Below, piece after piece: positions 3,661 to 18,940 of a stretch of DNA of 40,823 bases (position 1 is the first letter of the stretch; every line of letters begins with the position of its first letter). A program made the translations under genes and the position numbers. The notes below the pieces were generated by a model. It searched no databases. It was not told the origin of the DNA and saw nothing but the letters and a program-made list of their open reading frames with translations. The stretch is taken from positions 1 through 40,823 of the forward strand of contig CALVRX010000049.1 of NCBI GenBank assembly GCA_944358815.1. Reading direction: 5' to 3'. This DNA comes from an uncultured Bacilli bacterium. Its GTDB lineage: Bacteria; Bacillota_I; Bacilli_A; RF39; UBA660.

Positions 3661-4413
3661 ATGAAGGCATTAATTACAGGTGCAAGTTCTGGTATAGGCG
3701 CTGATATGGCTAGAGTATTAGTGGATGAGGGATATGAAGTAATACTTGTAGCTAGAAGAAAAACGAGATTAGAAAAATTAGCTAAAGAATTAGGAGATAG
3801 AGCTAGAATAATTGTTAAAGATATTTCTAGTACATATAATTGCATGGAACTTTATAATGATTTAAAAAAAGAAAATATTGATATTTTAATTAATAATGCG
3901 GGATTTGGGATATTTGGCGAATTTAGCGATACTAATATTGATAAAGAATTAGATATGATTGATTTAAATATAAAAGCATTACATACACTTACTAAATTGT
4001 TTTTAAAGGATTTTAAACGGAAAGATCGCGGTTATATTTTGAATGTGGCATCTTCGGCAGGTTTTTTATCTGGTCCTTTGATGGCAAGTTATTATGCGAC
4101 TAAGAATTATGTTGTCAGCTTATCTTTAGCAATTTATGAAGAGTTAAGAAGAGATAATAGTAATGTTTCAATTAGTGTTTTATGTCCTGGACCAGTAAAT
4201 ACGGAGTTTAATAAAATAGCTAGGGTACATTTTTCTATTAAAGGAATGGAAAGCATGGATGTAGCTAAATATGCTATTAAAAAAATGTTTGATGAAAAAT
4301 TAATTATTATACCAGGATTGAAAATGAAATTAGGAATATTTTTGATTAGATTTGTTCCTAGAAAATTACTATTAAAAATTAGTTATAAAATTCAAAATGG
4401 TAAGCGAAGTTAA
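3661..4413 (+). CDS. Short-chain dehydrogenase/reductase (SDR) family protein
   Basis: A 250-residue classical SDR. The Rossmann glycine motif TGASSGIG is at residues 6-13, NNAG at 78-81, the catalytic Ser at 131 and the YxxxK pair at Tyr144/Lys148. The two Args near residues 32-33 (VARRK) suggest NADP(H) preference, which is an inference. After the catalytic core comes a C-terminal extension (residues 190-250) with a hydrophobic, basic stretch that may touch the membrane. The substrate cannot be read from the sequence. The gene has its own promoter and a GGTGAT-type ribosome site, and ends in a terminator. Confidence 0.88.
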   Translation: MKALITGASSGIGADMARVLVDEGYEVILVARRKTRLEKLAKELGDRARIIVKDISSTYNCMELYNDLKKENIDILINNAGFGIFGEFSDTNIDKELDMIDLNIKALHTLTKLFLKDFKRKDRGYILNVASSAGFLSGPLMASYYATKNYVVSLSLAIYEELRRDNSNVSISVLCPGPVNTEFNKIARVHFSIKGMESMDVAKYAIKKMFDEKLIIIPGLKMKLGIFLIRFVPRKLLLKISYKIQNGKRS

Positions 4414-4471: not shown

Positions 4472-5659
4472 ATGGGGAAAATATTAGATTATGATGAGAT
4501 GAATGAAATTTTGGATAATTTGGATAGTAAGGTTATTAAGAAAGAAAAGCCTATTGGATATACATATTTTGGTTATCCAATAGAACATTATGTATATGGT
4601 CATGGTAGGTATCATGTGATTATTACTGGAGGAACACATAGTAGTGAATTAATTAGTAATATTTTTGTGATTAGATTTATGGAAAAAATTTGTAATAAAG
4701 AAGTTAATATAGATGAAGATGAATATACTATTCATTTTATTCCAATCGTTAATCCTGAAGGTACTATTATTGTGACAAGTGCGATTAGGTCACTTATTCC
4801 AAGAGGCATAAGTGATGAAGAAGAGCAGACTTTTTGCCTTACTTATTATAGAAATAGTCATATCGAAGGTGATTATGTTAATAAATATGGTGACAAGGGG
4901 GAAAAGTTACAACAATTAATGTTTAGACATGCAACTCCTGATATATTAGATGGTAGACATAATAAGTTAAAAGATTATTTAAAAAAATTGTTTAAAGATA
5001 ATAATTTACCTATTGGTTGTATGATTAATTGGTCTAGTAATGGTAGAGGCGTTGATTTAAATAGTAATATTGAATGTGGAAAATTTGTTAGCCGAGTTGA
5101 AAATGGTGAAGAGATATATGCAAAGTTACATTTAAACAATATTAGAAGAGATAAGTTAGGACCATTAGGTTGTCCTTATTTTGCTAAAAAAGGGGAAATT
5201 GAAAAAGAAAATGAAGCGTTGTTGAAATTTTATAATGAAATAAAAAATAATTTTGATTTAATTGGTTCATTTATTTATCATAGTTGTGGTGATATTGTTT
5301 ATTATTTAGGTGATTCTAAAAAAGAAAATCCTTGGATAAAGTTATCTGAAAAAGATAAAAATAAAAACTATGAAGTGGCAAAGGTTTATGCGGGTAATAC
5401 TGGTTATAAGCTAGACGGTTTTGAAATTTATACAACTATGGATTCGAAGTTAAAAAGTCTTTTTCCTGTTACTTTATTAATTGAGCTTGGAAGTGTTAGG
5501 GCAACGCCTTTATCGCAGTTTATGGATTTTGATTTAGATGGCAGTTTTGAAGCGTTTAAAATGGTCTATTCTAAGATAATTAAAAATAATTCGATGGCTA
5601 TTATAAAGACCTTGCCGGTTATGGTTAAAATGTTTAATGAAGGTTCAATTGAGAAATAG
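4472..5659 (+). CDS. M14-family zinc carboxypeptidase-like protein
   Basis: A 395-residue cytoplasmic protein with the M14 metal site: His56 and Glu59 (HSSE after TGG), the third ligand His270 (IYHSCGD) and the catalytic Glu338 (LIELGS). VNPEG near residue 94 is also typical. The family motif GVDLNRN appears here as GVDLNSN (residues 193-199), so the Arg that normally grips the substrate's free carboxylate (Arg145 in bovine carboxypeptidase A) is Ser198. The protein may therefore act on something other than a plain peptide C-terminus. No signal peptide is visible. A GGGAG site precedes the ATG. The gene stands alone between two promoters. Confidence 0.78.
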   Translation: MGKILDYDEMNEILDNLDSKVIKKEKPIGYTYFGYPIEHYVYGHGRYHVIITGGTHSSELISNIFVIRFMEKICNKEVNIDEDEYTIHFIPIVNPEGTIIVTSAIRSLIPRGISDEEEQTFCLTYYRNSHIEGDYVNKYGDKGEKLQQLMFRHATPDILDGRHNKLKDYLKKLFKDNNLPIGCMINWSSNGRGVDLNSNIECGKFVSRVENGEEIYAKLHLNNIRRDKLGPLGCPYFAKKGEIEKENEALLKFYNEIKNNFDLIGSFIYHSCGDIVYYLGDSKKENPWIKLSEKDKNKNYEVAKVYAGNTGYKLDGFEIYTTMDSKLKSLFPVTLLIELGSVRATPLSQFMDFDLDGSFEAFKMVYSKIIKNNSMAIIKTLPVMVKMFNEGSIEK

Positions 5660-5831: not shown

Positions 5832-6608
5832 ATGCAGGCGATAGAAATAAAAAATTTAAGTTTTAATTATGGAAAATTGGTAGTTTTTAAAAATTTAAAT
5901 TTAAATATTTTAGAAGGTAGTTTTGTCACAATTTTAGGAAAAAATGGTTCTGGTAAAACTACGCTTGCAAACATTTTGGCTGGTAATTTAAAATATAATG
6001 GTGATATTTTAATTTTTAATAAACCTTTTGATAAGAACAATGTTGGATTTACTGGCGATGAATTGGAATATGATAATTATGATACAGTTATGAATATTTT
6101 ATTAAAAAAGGTACATGCTTTTGAGAAAAAAGATGTTAGAAAGAGGATTTTAGATCTTGCGGTTGAATTTTATTTTAGTAAGTATTTAGATAAAAAATTT
6201 GATGAACTTTCTATTACTGAAAAAAAGTTAGTTGTTTTGGGAAGTTTTTTGATAGAACCAGTAAAAATATTAATTATGGATAATTTTTTTGAAGATTTTG
6301 ATAATAATTTAAGGAGTAATATATTAAATAAATTACGAAAGTTTTCTAAAAAAATAAATATGACAATAATTAATTTTACTAATGATGTAGAAGAGGGATT
6401 AGTTGGTAATCAGGTAGTAATTATTGGAAATGGGAAAGTTCTTTTAAAAGGGTCTAAAAAGAATGTTTTTGAAAACGAAAATTTTTTTGATGAAAATGAT
6501 ATGAATTTGCCTTTTGTAGTTAGTTTGTCAGATAAGCTGAAATTTTATGATTTAATAGATAAAATATATTTGAATGAAAAGAAATTGGTGGATGATTTAT
6601 GGAAATAA
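5832..6608 (+). CDS. EcfA1-like ABC ATPase with degenerate catalytic motifs
   Basis: A 258-residue ATPase in the position of ecfA1 (cbiO) in Bacilli, where the pair energises ECF vitamin and metal transporters. Walker A is intact (GKNGSGKT, residues 36-43). The other motifs are eroded. The Q-loop reads VGFTGDE without Gln, the signature reads LSITE in place of LSGGQ, Walker B reads ILIMDNFF with Asn in place of the catalytic Glu, and the switch His is Asn (NFTNDV). The chain is otherwise full length and in frame. It overlaps the second ATPase by ten bases, so the pair is co-translated. No ecfT follows. It probably binds ATP but is doubtful as a normal hydrolase. Confidence 0.82.
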   Translation: MQAIEIKNLSFNYGKLVVFKNLNLNILEGSFVTILGKNGSGKTTLANILAGNLKYNGDILIFNKPFDKNNVGFTGDELEYDNYDTVMNILLKKVHAFEKKDVRKRILDLAVEFYFSKYLDKKFDELSITEKKLVVLGSFLIEPVKILIMDNFFEDFDNNLRSNILNKLRKFSKKINMTIINFTNDVEEGLVGNQVVIIGNGKVLLKGSKKNVFENENFFDENDMNLPFVVSLSDKLKFYDLIDKIYLNEKKLVDDLWK

Positions 6609-7357
6609 TATTTGATAATTTATCTGATAATGTTTTGAGTTTTTCTGATTTAGCACTTAATATTGAGAAGAAAAAAATCACTATTGTGACTGGAAAAAAT
6701 GGTAGTGGTAAAAGTCGTTTACTTTTATTGATTCGTGATGAATTAGTGAAAGAAGGTTTTAATAAAATTGGCTATTTAGCTCAAAATCCGGAAAATTTCT
6801 TTTTTTGTAATACTATTTATCAAGAAATTTTATTTGTACTAAAAAAAAATAAAATACATACTGATTATGATAAGAAAATATTTGGTGCTTTAAAGATGGT
6901 TGGATTAGATAGAAGCTATTTGGATCGTTCACCTTTTGATATTAGCCGTGGTGAACAAAAGAAAGTGGCTTTGGCTAAAGTATTAGTGTGTAATCCAAGA
7001 ATTTTAATTTTAGATGAACCGTTTACTTATTTAGATTATTCTAGTAAGTGTAAGATGATTAAATTATTTAGAATGATGAAACTAAGATATGGTAAAACTA
7101 TTATTTTAGCTACTAATAATACAGATTTAGCTTTGGAACTGGCTGATGATATTATGGCTTTAAAAGATGGGGAAGTGGCTTTTAAAGGTGGTAAGTTTGA
7201 ATTTTTTACTAATCATAAGCTGTTGGAAAAATTTAATTTGGATGAGCCTAAGTTAGCTGAGTTTACTAATTTGGTGAAAAATACTAAAGGAATTAATTTA
7301 GGGTACCGCGATGATATTAATGATTTAATAAAAGATATATATAGATTTGTTCGATGA
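6599..7357 (+). CDS. EcfA2-like ABC ATPase
   Basis: A 252-residue partner of the preceding ATPase. Walker A GKNGSGKS, Q-loop YLAQNPEN, signature SRGEQKK and Walker B ILILDEPF with its Glu are all present, and FTYLD forms the D-loop. The switch His is Asn (ATNNTD). The C-terminal region, with LDEPKLAEFTNLVKN, matches the EcfA type that holds the EcfT coupling helices. The start overlaps the upstream gene and has GGTGGATG-like sequence before the ATG. The normal third gene, ecfT, is absent before truA, so the membrane partner must be encoded elsewhere or be lost. Confidence 0.85.
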   Translation: MEIIFDNLSDNVLSFSDLALNIEKKKITIVTGKNGSGKSRLLLLIRDELVKEGFNKIGYLAQNPENFFFCNTIYQEILFVLKKNKIHTDYDKKIFGALKMVGLDRSYLDRSPFDISRGEQKKVALAKVLVCNPRILILDEPFTYLDYSSKCKMIKLFRMMKLRYGKTIILATNNTDLALELADDIMALKDGEVAFKGGKFEFFTNHKLLEKFNLDEPKLAEFTNLVKNTKGINLGYRDDINDLIKDIYRFVR

Positions 7358-7437: not shown

Positions 7438-8181
7438 ATGAGATACTTGATAACGTTTGCTTATGATGGTTCTAAATATAGAGGTTATCAAAAGCAACCT
7501 GATGTAAAAACGGTGCAAGGTGAATTAGAAACGGCATTAAAAACAATTAATGGGCACAAAGATGTAAATGTTGTGGCAGCCGGAAGAACTGATGCTGGGG
7601 TACATGCTTATAATCAAAAAGCACATTTTGATTTAGATATTAAACATATTACACCAGAAAAATTAAAGGATGGATTAAATAGTTTATTACCTAATGATAT
7701 TTATATAAGAAATGTGGAAATAGTTGCAGATGATTTTCATGCTAGATATAATGCTAAAGCGAAAGAATATATTTATATTATTAATATGGGTGAGTATAAT
7801 CCAATTGAAAAGGATTATATATATCAGTACAATAAAAAATTGGATGTTGTCGAGATGGAAAGAGCTTTAAAGTATTTAGAGGGTACCCATAATTTTAAGT
7901 CGTTTACTAAAAGTGACGATGAAAGGGAGGATTATGTTAGAACAATTGTGCAAACTAGACTTACTAGAGAACTTAAGAATGTTAATAAAATTACGCTTAG
8001 TTTTTTAGGAACTGGTTTTATGCGTTATCAGGTAAGAAATATGATTGGTACTTTGATTGAAATTGGTGAAGGCAAAAGGAAAAGTGAAGATATTATAGAT
8101 ATATTAAATGCTCAAGATAGAAGAAAAGCTGGTAAGACGGCTAGTCCAGAAGGTTTATATTTAAAAGATGTACTTTATTAA
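7438..8181 (+). CDS. truA: tRNA pseudouridine(38-40) synthase TruA
   Basis: A 247-residue enzyme that makes pseudouridine at positions 38-40 of the tRNA anticodon arm. The catalytic motif AGRTDAGVHA is near residues 49-58, followed by FHARYNAKAKEYIY and the GTGFMRYQVRNMIGTL segment. The ATG at 7438 follows GTAGGAGGA and is preferred over the in-frame ATG at 7405, which has no such site. It lies in the conserved slot between the ecf ATPases and rplM. A long inverted repeat downstream separates it from rplM. Confidence 0.96.
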   Translation: MRYLITFAYDGSKYRGYQKQPDVKTVQGELETALKTINGHKDVNVVAAGRTDAGVHAYNQKAHFDLDIKHITPEKLKDGLNSLLPNDIYIRNVEIVADDFHARYNAKAKEYIYIINMGEYNPIEKDYIYQYNKKLDVVEMERALKYLEGTHNFKSFTKSDDEREDYVRTIVQTRLTRELKNVNKITLSFLGTGFMRYQVRNMIGTLIEIGEGKRKSEDIIDILNAQDRRKAGKTASPEGLYLKDVLY

Positions 8182-18007: not shown

Positions 18008-18940
18008 ATGACTGGAAAAATATTTAAAACAATCGATGAACAGGTAGAGATTTTAAGGGATAAAGGTTTAGTTATTAATGGTGATAAAAAGACAAAAGAG
18101 ATATTACTTAGGGAAAATTATTTTTTCATTAGTGGATATAGACATTTATTTATGACTAAAGAATCTGGTAAGAAGTTTTTACCAGGAACAACTTTTGAAG
18201 AACTTTATGCGACTTTTTTGTTTGATAGAGCTATTAGAAATACTTTTTTTAAAAATATTTTAATTGTTGAAAATAATATTAAGTCAATTGTTAGTTATCA
18301 ATTATCTAGAAAATATGGTTTTAAAGAAAAAGATTATTTAAATCCGCAAAATTTTTCTCAAGATGGTTTACAGTCAAGACAAGTATATGATGTTTTAAAT
18401 AAGGTTAAAAGGCAAATAAGGGTTAATGGACGTAAGCATGCTGCAACGTATCATTATATTGAAAATTATGGTTATATACCACTTTGGATTTTAGTTAAAG
18501 TACTTTCTTTTGGGCTTATGGCAGAATTTTATGATATTTTAAAATATGAAGATAAATTAGAGATAAGCAAATTTTATGAGATAAGTCCAGATGTTTTAGA
18601 TATATATTTGTCATTACTTTCTAATTTTAGAAATGTTTGTGCACATGAGGATATTTTATATGATCATAGAACGCAAAGAAGTATTCCTGATTGTGAGTAT
18701 CATGAAATATTAAATATTCCAAAGGATGATGATGGTTATATATATGGAAAAAATGATTTGTTTAGTTTAGTTATTATGCTAAAAACGATGCTTAGAAAAG
18801 ATGATTTTAATATAATGATAGAAGAGATAAAACATGAAGTTAATTTGCTGGATGAGGCAATAAACGTAGTACCGCTTGATACTATTTTGAACAGAATAGG
18901 TTTTCCAGATAATTGGTATGATATTAAAGAAGCAAAATAG
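18008..18940 (+). CDS. Abi_2 family (AbiD/AbiF-like) abortive-infection protein
   Basis: A 310-residue protein of the Abi_2 group. The N-terminus KIFKTIDEQVEILRDKGLVI and the NYFFISGYRHLF segment are typical, as is FDRAIRN near residues 72-78. The C-terminal SNFRNVCAHED (Arg208 to His213) matches the Rx4H signature of HEPN RNases. Relatives such as AbiD and AbiF stop phage growth in lactococci, apparently by RNA cleavage. It has its own -10 element and a GGTGAG ribosome site. The htrA ribosome site overlaps its stop codon, so the protease may be read from this transcript. Confidence 0.85.
   Translation: MTGKIFKTIDEQVEILRDKGLVINGDKKTKEILLRENYFFISGYRHLFMTKESGKKFLPGTTFEELYATFLFDRAIRNTFFKNILIVENNIKSIVSYQLSRKYGFKEKDYLNPQNFSQDGLQSRQVYDVLNKVKRQIRVNGRKHAATYHYIENYGYIPLWILVKVLSFGLMAEFYDILKYEDKLEISKFYEISPDVLDIYLSLLSNFRNVCAHEDILYDHRTQRSIPDCEYHEILNIPKDDDGYIYGKNDLFSLVIMLKTMLRKDDFNIMIEEIKHEVNLLDEAINVVPLDTILNRIGFPDNWYDIKEAK

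Follow-up and report, generated by a model that had tools for sequence, protein, structure and literature searches.

The genes for EcfA1 and EcfA2 normally power the import of vitamins. The window analysed here, a stretch of 40,823 nucleotides that makes up contig C49 of a 1.05 Mb assembly (63% complete), carries a pair of genes related to them, hereafter A1 and A2, in the order rpsK-rpoA-rplQ-hypothetical-SDR-M14-A1-A2-truA-rplM-rpsI. This is the location of the ecf operon, as the original prediction had it, with the refinement that three genes, encoding a hypothetical protein, an SDR and an M14-like peptidase, separate rplQ from ecfA1. Both ATPase genes were also rightly described as intact and overlapping: their reading frames are unbroken and share 10 bp. 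In the following list of features, site 1 is the composite ATP site formed by the A1 Walker motifs and the A2 signature, and site 2 the one formed by the A2 Walker motifs and the A1 signature.

5832-6608, + strand: EcfA1-like pseudo-ATPase gene, 258 aa, intact ORF
5937-5963, + strand: A1 Walker A GKNGSGKTT, retained at residues 36-44 and belonging to site 1
6051-6059, + strand: A1 Q-loop position, T-G-D, with the Gln lost (VGFTGDELEYDN), from the alignment
6207-6221, + strand: degenerate A1 signature LSITE (for LSGGQ), residues 126-130, site 2
6270-6284, + strand: A1 Walker B LIMDN, with Asp150 retained and Asn151 in the place of the catalytic Glu
6381-6383, + strand: A1 switch-His position, Asn184 (FTN184D)
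6432-6605, + strand: A1 C-terminal domain (LPFVVSLSDKLKFYDLID...LVDDLWK), where conservation is highest (lowest regional dN, 0.175)
6599-6608, + strand: overlap of the A1 end and the A2 start, 10 bp
6599-7357, + strand: EcfA2-like gene, 252 aa, intact ORF
6692-6715, + strand: A2 Walker A GKNGSGKS of site 2, unaltered in the window and lost in relatives
6941-6955, + strand: A2 signature ISRGE, residues 115-119, completing site 1
7004-7018, + strand: A2 Walker B LILDE, Glu140 kept, from the alignment
7115-7117, + strand: A2 switch-His position, Asn173 (TN173N)
7301-7345, + strand: A2 C-terminal motif GYRDDINDLIKDIYR
7438-8181, + strand: truA (TIGR00071, 213 bits), directly 3' of A2, at the expected place of ecfT

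Both proteins are homologues of the ECF ATPases, as indicated by their best models, their fold matches and the ECF C-terminal domain. The best NCBIfam model is TIGR04520 (ECF ATPase 1) for A1, with 120 bits against a curated cut-off of 315, and TIGR04521 (ECF ATPase 2) for A2, with 163 bits against 330; both scores lie far below the cut-offs, and neither protein qualifies as an EcfA equivalog. The AlphaFold2 models are confident (mean pLDDT 91.4 for A1 and 90.2 for A2), and their top Foldseek matches are EcfA and CbiO chains, with 4huq_A the best for A2 and 8bms among the top matches of both. A search of viral contigs returned no relatives of A1.

The alignment bears out all four of the changes proposed for A1, namely those of the Q-loop Gln, the LSGGQ signature, the catalytic Glu and the switch His. 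It also agrees with what had been said of A2, which keeps the Q-loop Gln (Q62), the Glu and the signature, the latter as ISRGE with its Ser and second Gly retained and its Gln changed to Glu, and which has Asn in place of the switch His. The central claim, that neither composite ATP site is canonical, thus stands: site 1 lacks the catalytic Glu and the His, and site 2 lacks the signature and the His. With no fully consensus composite site, the pair falls outside the class of ABC dimers that combine one degenerate and one consensus site. Nor does it have the make-up of a functional group II ECF module, as EcfT is absent and the A1 Glu and both switch His are gone.

The reported lack of ecfT held up as well. 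PF02361 has no match in the window's assembly, which is 63% complete, a profile built from EcfT proteins of the genus gives only a weak partial match with an internal stop (E 0.014), which is not convincing, and truA directly follows A2. At this locus the gap is a physical one, common also to relatives, and the relatives named are MAGs. The pair is present at the locus in 39 of the 44 genomes of the genus. EcfT comes after A2 in 13 of these 39 and is absent from 26, as judged with PF02361 and with the profile of the genus's own EcfTs, some of them very divergent; one EcfT gene split over two contigs (G151) was counted as present, and in one genome (G118) a contig end cuts through the locus. 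Loss of the pair in the other five members was rejected as unsupported; they show no truA either, probably because the assembly misses this stretch. Very divergent EcfT proteins are found in EcfT-bearing members of the genus (L083, L088, L092, L094, L097 and L098). In two genomes (G153 and G155), the conserved Ala-Arg-type coupling motifs of EcfT have apparently been lost, which suggests that EcfT may decay before it is lost.

In a tree of the neighbouring genes, 17 species without EcfT, including that of the window, form a single clade with 100% support (the window clade), whose members all show unbroken frames, the 10-bp overlap and Asn151. The genus tree needs at least four changes of EcfT state, three of them forced. 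The locus was also readable in 112 genomes from the wider family, sampled with one genome per genus and with extra regions added; together with the genus, this gives 58 genomes with EcfT, 82 with the pair without EcfT, seven with neither and three undetermined. The 10-bp overlap is exact in 93 of 100 genomes from other genera. On the family tree, which was built by a quick method, is unrooted and contains many weakly supported branches, the EcfT state changes at least 22 times (12 of them forced by well-supported, starred branches), and loss of the pair, seen in seven sampled genera, needs five changes. Because ecfA1A2T is ancestral in Bacilli (PMC8046335), most of these changes in EcfT state should be losses. 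The EcfT-less and apparently catalysis-poor pair is thus a recurrent state across the family, which belongs to the uncultured gut Bacilli. A literature search, with most subscription journals outside its coverage, found no earlier description of an EcfA pair without EcfT.

The surroundings of the pair vary. The SDR oxidoreductase (window positions 3661-4413) lies upstream of the pair family-wide, and in three genomes from which the pair has been lost (G027, G066 and G100) it adjoins truA. In most window-clade species, and in some other members of the genus, the gene next to ecfA1 on its 5' side encodes the M14-like zinc carboxypeptidase-type protein (4472-5659; partial match to PF00246); many other relatives have no M14-like gene at this place. 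Elsewhere in the window are an Abi_2 (Abi-like, PF07751) protein, possibly an abortive-infection gene product (18008-18940), and a predicted surface protein beside a sortase (PF04203) and an amidase (PF01520; 15703-17945).

A scenario in which degeneration started with the loss of EcfT was considered and rejected, as EcfT-bearing relatives are already without the A1 signature and the A2 His. Essentially every genus member examined, EcfT-bearing ones included, shows the degenerate A1 signature together with loss of the A2 His, and no aligned member, with or without EcfT, has a switch His in A2. The EcfT-bearing sister group (G124, G137, G117 and G126) already has Asn for the A1 Glu, and some EcfT-bearing relatives also lack the A1 Glu and His. 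Since relatives that still have EcfT already lack these catalytic features, the loss of catalysis came before the loss of EcfT.

Conservation among the EcfT-less genomes of the family is uneven. In A1, the Walker A motif is matched in 68 of 81 genomes, Lys42 is kept in 93% of them (including the whole window clade) and the Walker B Asp in 77 (95%). The A1 catalytic position is Glu in four of the 81 (5%), Asn in 38 and Asp in 32, and it is Asn in all 17 species of the window clade. The A1 switch His remains in two genomes (2%), the second Gly of the signature in 9% and a consensus signature in six of 81, none of them in the window clade. In A2, the Walker A motif is matched in 25 of 79 genomes and its Lys is kept in 47%, and the signature retains Ser116 in 91% and Glu or Gln at position 119 in 87%. 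Other top-conserved positions fall in the C-terminal domains: P227, L236 and Y239, which are invariant, and W257 in A1; K245 (100%), Y248 (96%) and P217 in A2. To judge from these residues, what survives in genomes without EcfT is one putative ATP sandwich, site 1, minus the residues for hydrolysis. The coupling of the A1 Walker A with the A2 signature Ser is suggestive (Fisher p = 0.08), and comparisons of phylogenetically independent pairs, which are underpowered, go in the expected direction for EcfT loss against both the A1 Glu (median p 0.06) and the A2 Walker A (median p 0.13).

Reduction goes furthest in three genomes (G007, G045 and G088), where the proteins have shrunk to 149-157 and 181-185 aa, have lost both P-loops and match no Pfam family; their genes are still adjacent, overlapping and upstream of truA. 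ATP binding is therefore not universal, and the most reduced genera seem no longer to bind nucleotide at all. The smallest paired remnants, of about 150 + 183 aa, P-loop-free and with no Pfam match, lie at L255 517-1511, L257 495-1504 and L262 2202-3202.

Our preferred reading, in which we have moderate confidence, is that the pair would form an ATP-bound, non-hydrolysing EcfA1-EcfA2 heterodimer that acts as a scaffold or sensor independently of transport. It would be a derived heterodimer that has departed from ECF transport, arranged head to tail and probably held together by its C-terminal domains and by a single ATP sandwiched at site 1. Lacking the switch His and having Asn or Asp where the catalytic Glu should be, it would keep the nucleotide bound without turnover; site 2 would be dispensable and decaying. 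The dimer may then serve as an ATP-bound scaffold, or report its nucleotide state, for a partner other than EcfT. We favour a non-hydrolysing dimer because an ECF module with Glu-to-Gln changes closes without hydrolysis and because Pdr5 naturally has Asn at the catalytic position of one site. As the most reduced genera retain only C-terminal dimer-like cores, some other function may outlast ATP binding.

The regional pattern of substitution in the window clade matches a preserved site 1 and dimer core, with a relaxed site 2 and a relaxed A1 helical/Q-loop region. In A1, dN is 0.234 for the N-terminal/Walker A region, 0.568 for the helical/Q-loop region, 0.400 for the signature/Walker B/His region and 0.175 for the C-terminal domain; the values for A2, in the same order, are 0.453, 0.294, 0.242 and 0.243. 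The Walker region thus evolves more slowly in A1 than in A2, and the signature region more slowly in A2 than in A1, neither order being reversed in any of 500 bootstraps.

An alternative that we consider unlikely is slow relict decay, in which the use of the pair was lost along with EcfT and the genes persist under weak constraint, as a snapshot of reductive evolution with no new function. It would account for the graded series that leads from canonical pairs through degenerate motifs, EcfT loss, loss of the A2 P-loop and loss of the A1 P-loop to loss of the pair. It also draws on rates that are high relative to neighbouring genes: dN/dS is mostly 0.02-0.05 for truA as against 0.2-0.4 for the ATPases, and because the pair evolves so much faster than truA, the constraint on it is real but weak. 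In the window clade, gene-wide dN/dS (NG86) is 0.37 for A1 and 0.29 for A2 at a pairwise dS near 0.9, close to saturation; in one close pair of genomes (G135 and G141), it is 0.08 and 0.15, respectively. Frameshifts and a high dN/dS in close relatives, which would mark a decaying pair, were looked for, and none of the 17 orthologs is broken; with 17 of 17 pairs intact and dN/dS well under 1, they do not qualify as pseudogenes. Against relict decay also stand the near-universal 10-bp overlap, the retention of the EcfT-less pair in 82 genomes over deep clades, and a region-specific constraint that is strongest around site 1 and in the C-terminal domain. Moreover, where the A1 Glu has been replaced it has become almost exclusively Asn or Asp (70 of 77 cases), unlike what random decay would give. 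A pair that stays open, overlapping and regionally constrained through many losses of EcfT is not a pseudogene and should have some use that does not depend on EcfT. The original suggestion of a change of function rather than decay is therefore largely supported by the intact frames, the overlap, the low dN/dS and the region-specific selection; the slow switch or regulator named as examples of it would be a more speculative step. Its restriction to one lineage is not, as the change is family-wide and recurrent and began before EcfT was lost.

Continued import, driven by the pair through some other permease or a far-diverged EcfT whose gene lies elsewhere, is quite improbable. The incompleteness of the window's assembly (63%) leaves room for such cryptic transport, as does the probable vitamin requirement of these gut bacteria, and solitary ECF modules do serve many S components (PMC10368641). 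However, the genus-built profile recovers very divergent EcfTs and nothing convincing in the 26 members scored as lacking it, and none of the S component families PF12822, PF07155 and PF02632 has a match above cut-off in the 44 genomes of the genus, EcfT-bearing ones included. Six of the genomes with EcfT (G067, G132, G142, G151, G156 and G158) are examples of the latter situation. In known ECF modules, the A1 helical/Q-loop region is part of the side that faces EcfT; here, it is the least constrained part of A1 (dN 0.568), and the residues for hydrolysis are gone. Least credible of all is an asymmetric slow ATPase, a timer in which the A2 Walker A and Glu would hydrolyse ATP at site 2: A2 of the window does retain Walker A, Q-loop and Glu140, and the A2 Walker A is kept in 13 of 17 clade members, but it is gone in the other four and in most EcfT-less genera, substitutions accumulate in its region at about twice the rate of A1's, and site 2 has neither the A1 signature nor the A2 His. 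Alternatively, slow hydrolysis might be carried out by the Asp variants of A1. The pattern of residues, with Asn or Asp for the catalytic base, the His lost and one sandwich kept, would fit a non-hydrolysing dimer better than a slow ATPase.

We propose more tentatively, and with some reserve, that these pairs constitute a family-wide, repeatedly evolved class of pseudo-ATPases: transport-free heterodimeric scaffolds, at first ATP-bound and later P-loop-free, with a new cytosolic role. Only rarely are ABC ATPases found to lose both catalysis and permease while the pair itself stays conserved. A single bacterial family has gone through this many times over, and its intermediates span the range from canonical ECF modules to P-loop-free remnants, which offers a testable system for the conversion of a transporter motor into a pseudoenzyme and for what the C-terminal dimer of EcfA can do without EcfT. 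It also means that ecfA genes in reduced gut genomes are not proof of vitamin uptake by ECF transporters.

The closest known system is the group II EcfA1-EcfA2-EcfT module of Lactobacillus delbrueckii, L. brevis and Bacillus subtilis, which is alike in its homologous ATPases, gene order, ecf operon location and fold. The window pair differs from it in lacking EcfT, the A1 catalytic Glu, the A1 signature and both switch His, with no S component detected among the three families searched. Elsewhere in Bacilli, one reported loss took ecfA1A2T together (PMC8046335). In the 2EQ version of an ECF module (8bms), Glu-to-Gln changes in both ATPases abolish hydrolysis and yield a closed, ATP-bound state (PMC10368641). 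The window pair resembles it in the removal of the catalytic Glu and, presumably, in forming a closed, ATP-bound and non-hydrolysing dimer. However, the 2EQ module is engineered, changed in both subunits and still endowed with EcfT and His, whereas the window pair is natural, changed in A1 only and devoid of EcfT. Heterodimeric ABC exporters with a degenerate site, such as TAP, MRP1 and Pdr5, likewise have asymmetric sites in which Glu, His and signature are replaced, and the degenerate site of Pdr5 naturally has Asn for the catalytic Glu, Pdr5 also having a changed His (PMC7756269). In these exporters one site is still consensus and a membrane domain is present; the window pair has neither. 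Finally, PhnK-PhnL of C-P lyase (7z15, among the lower-ranked fold matches of A1) also brings together two different ABC ATPases without a permease of their own; these are not ECF ATPases, and the likeness considered here is that of the pairing.
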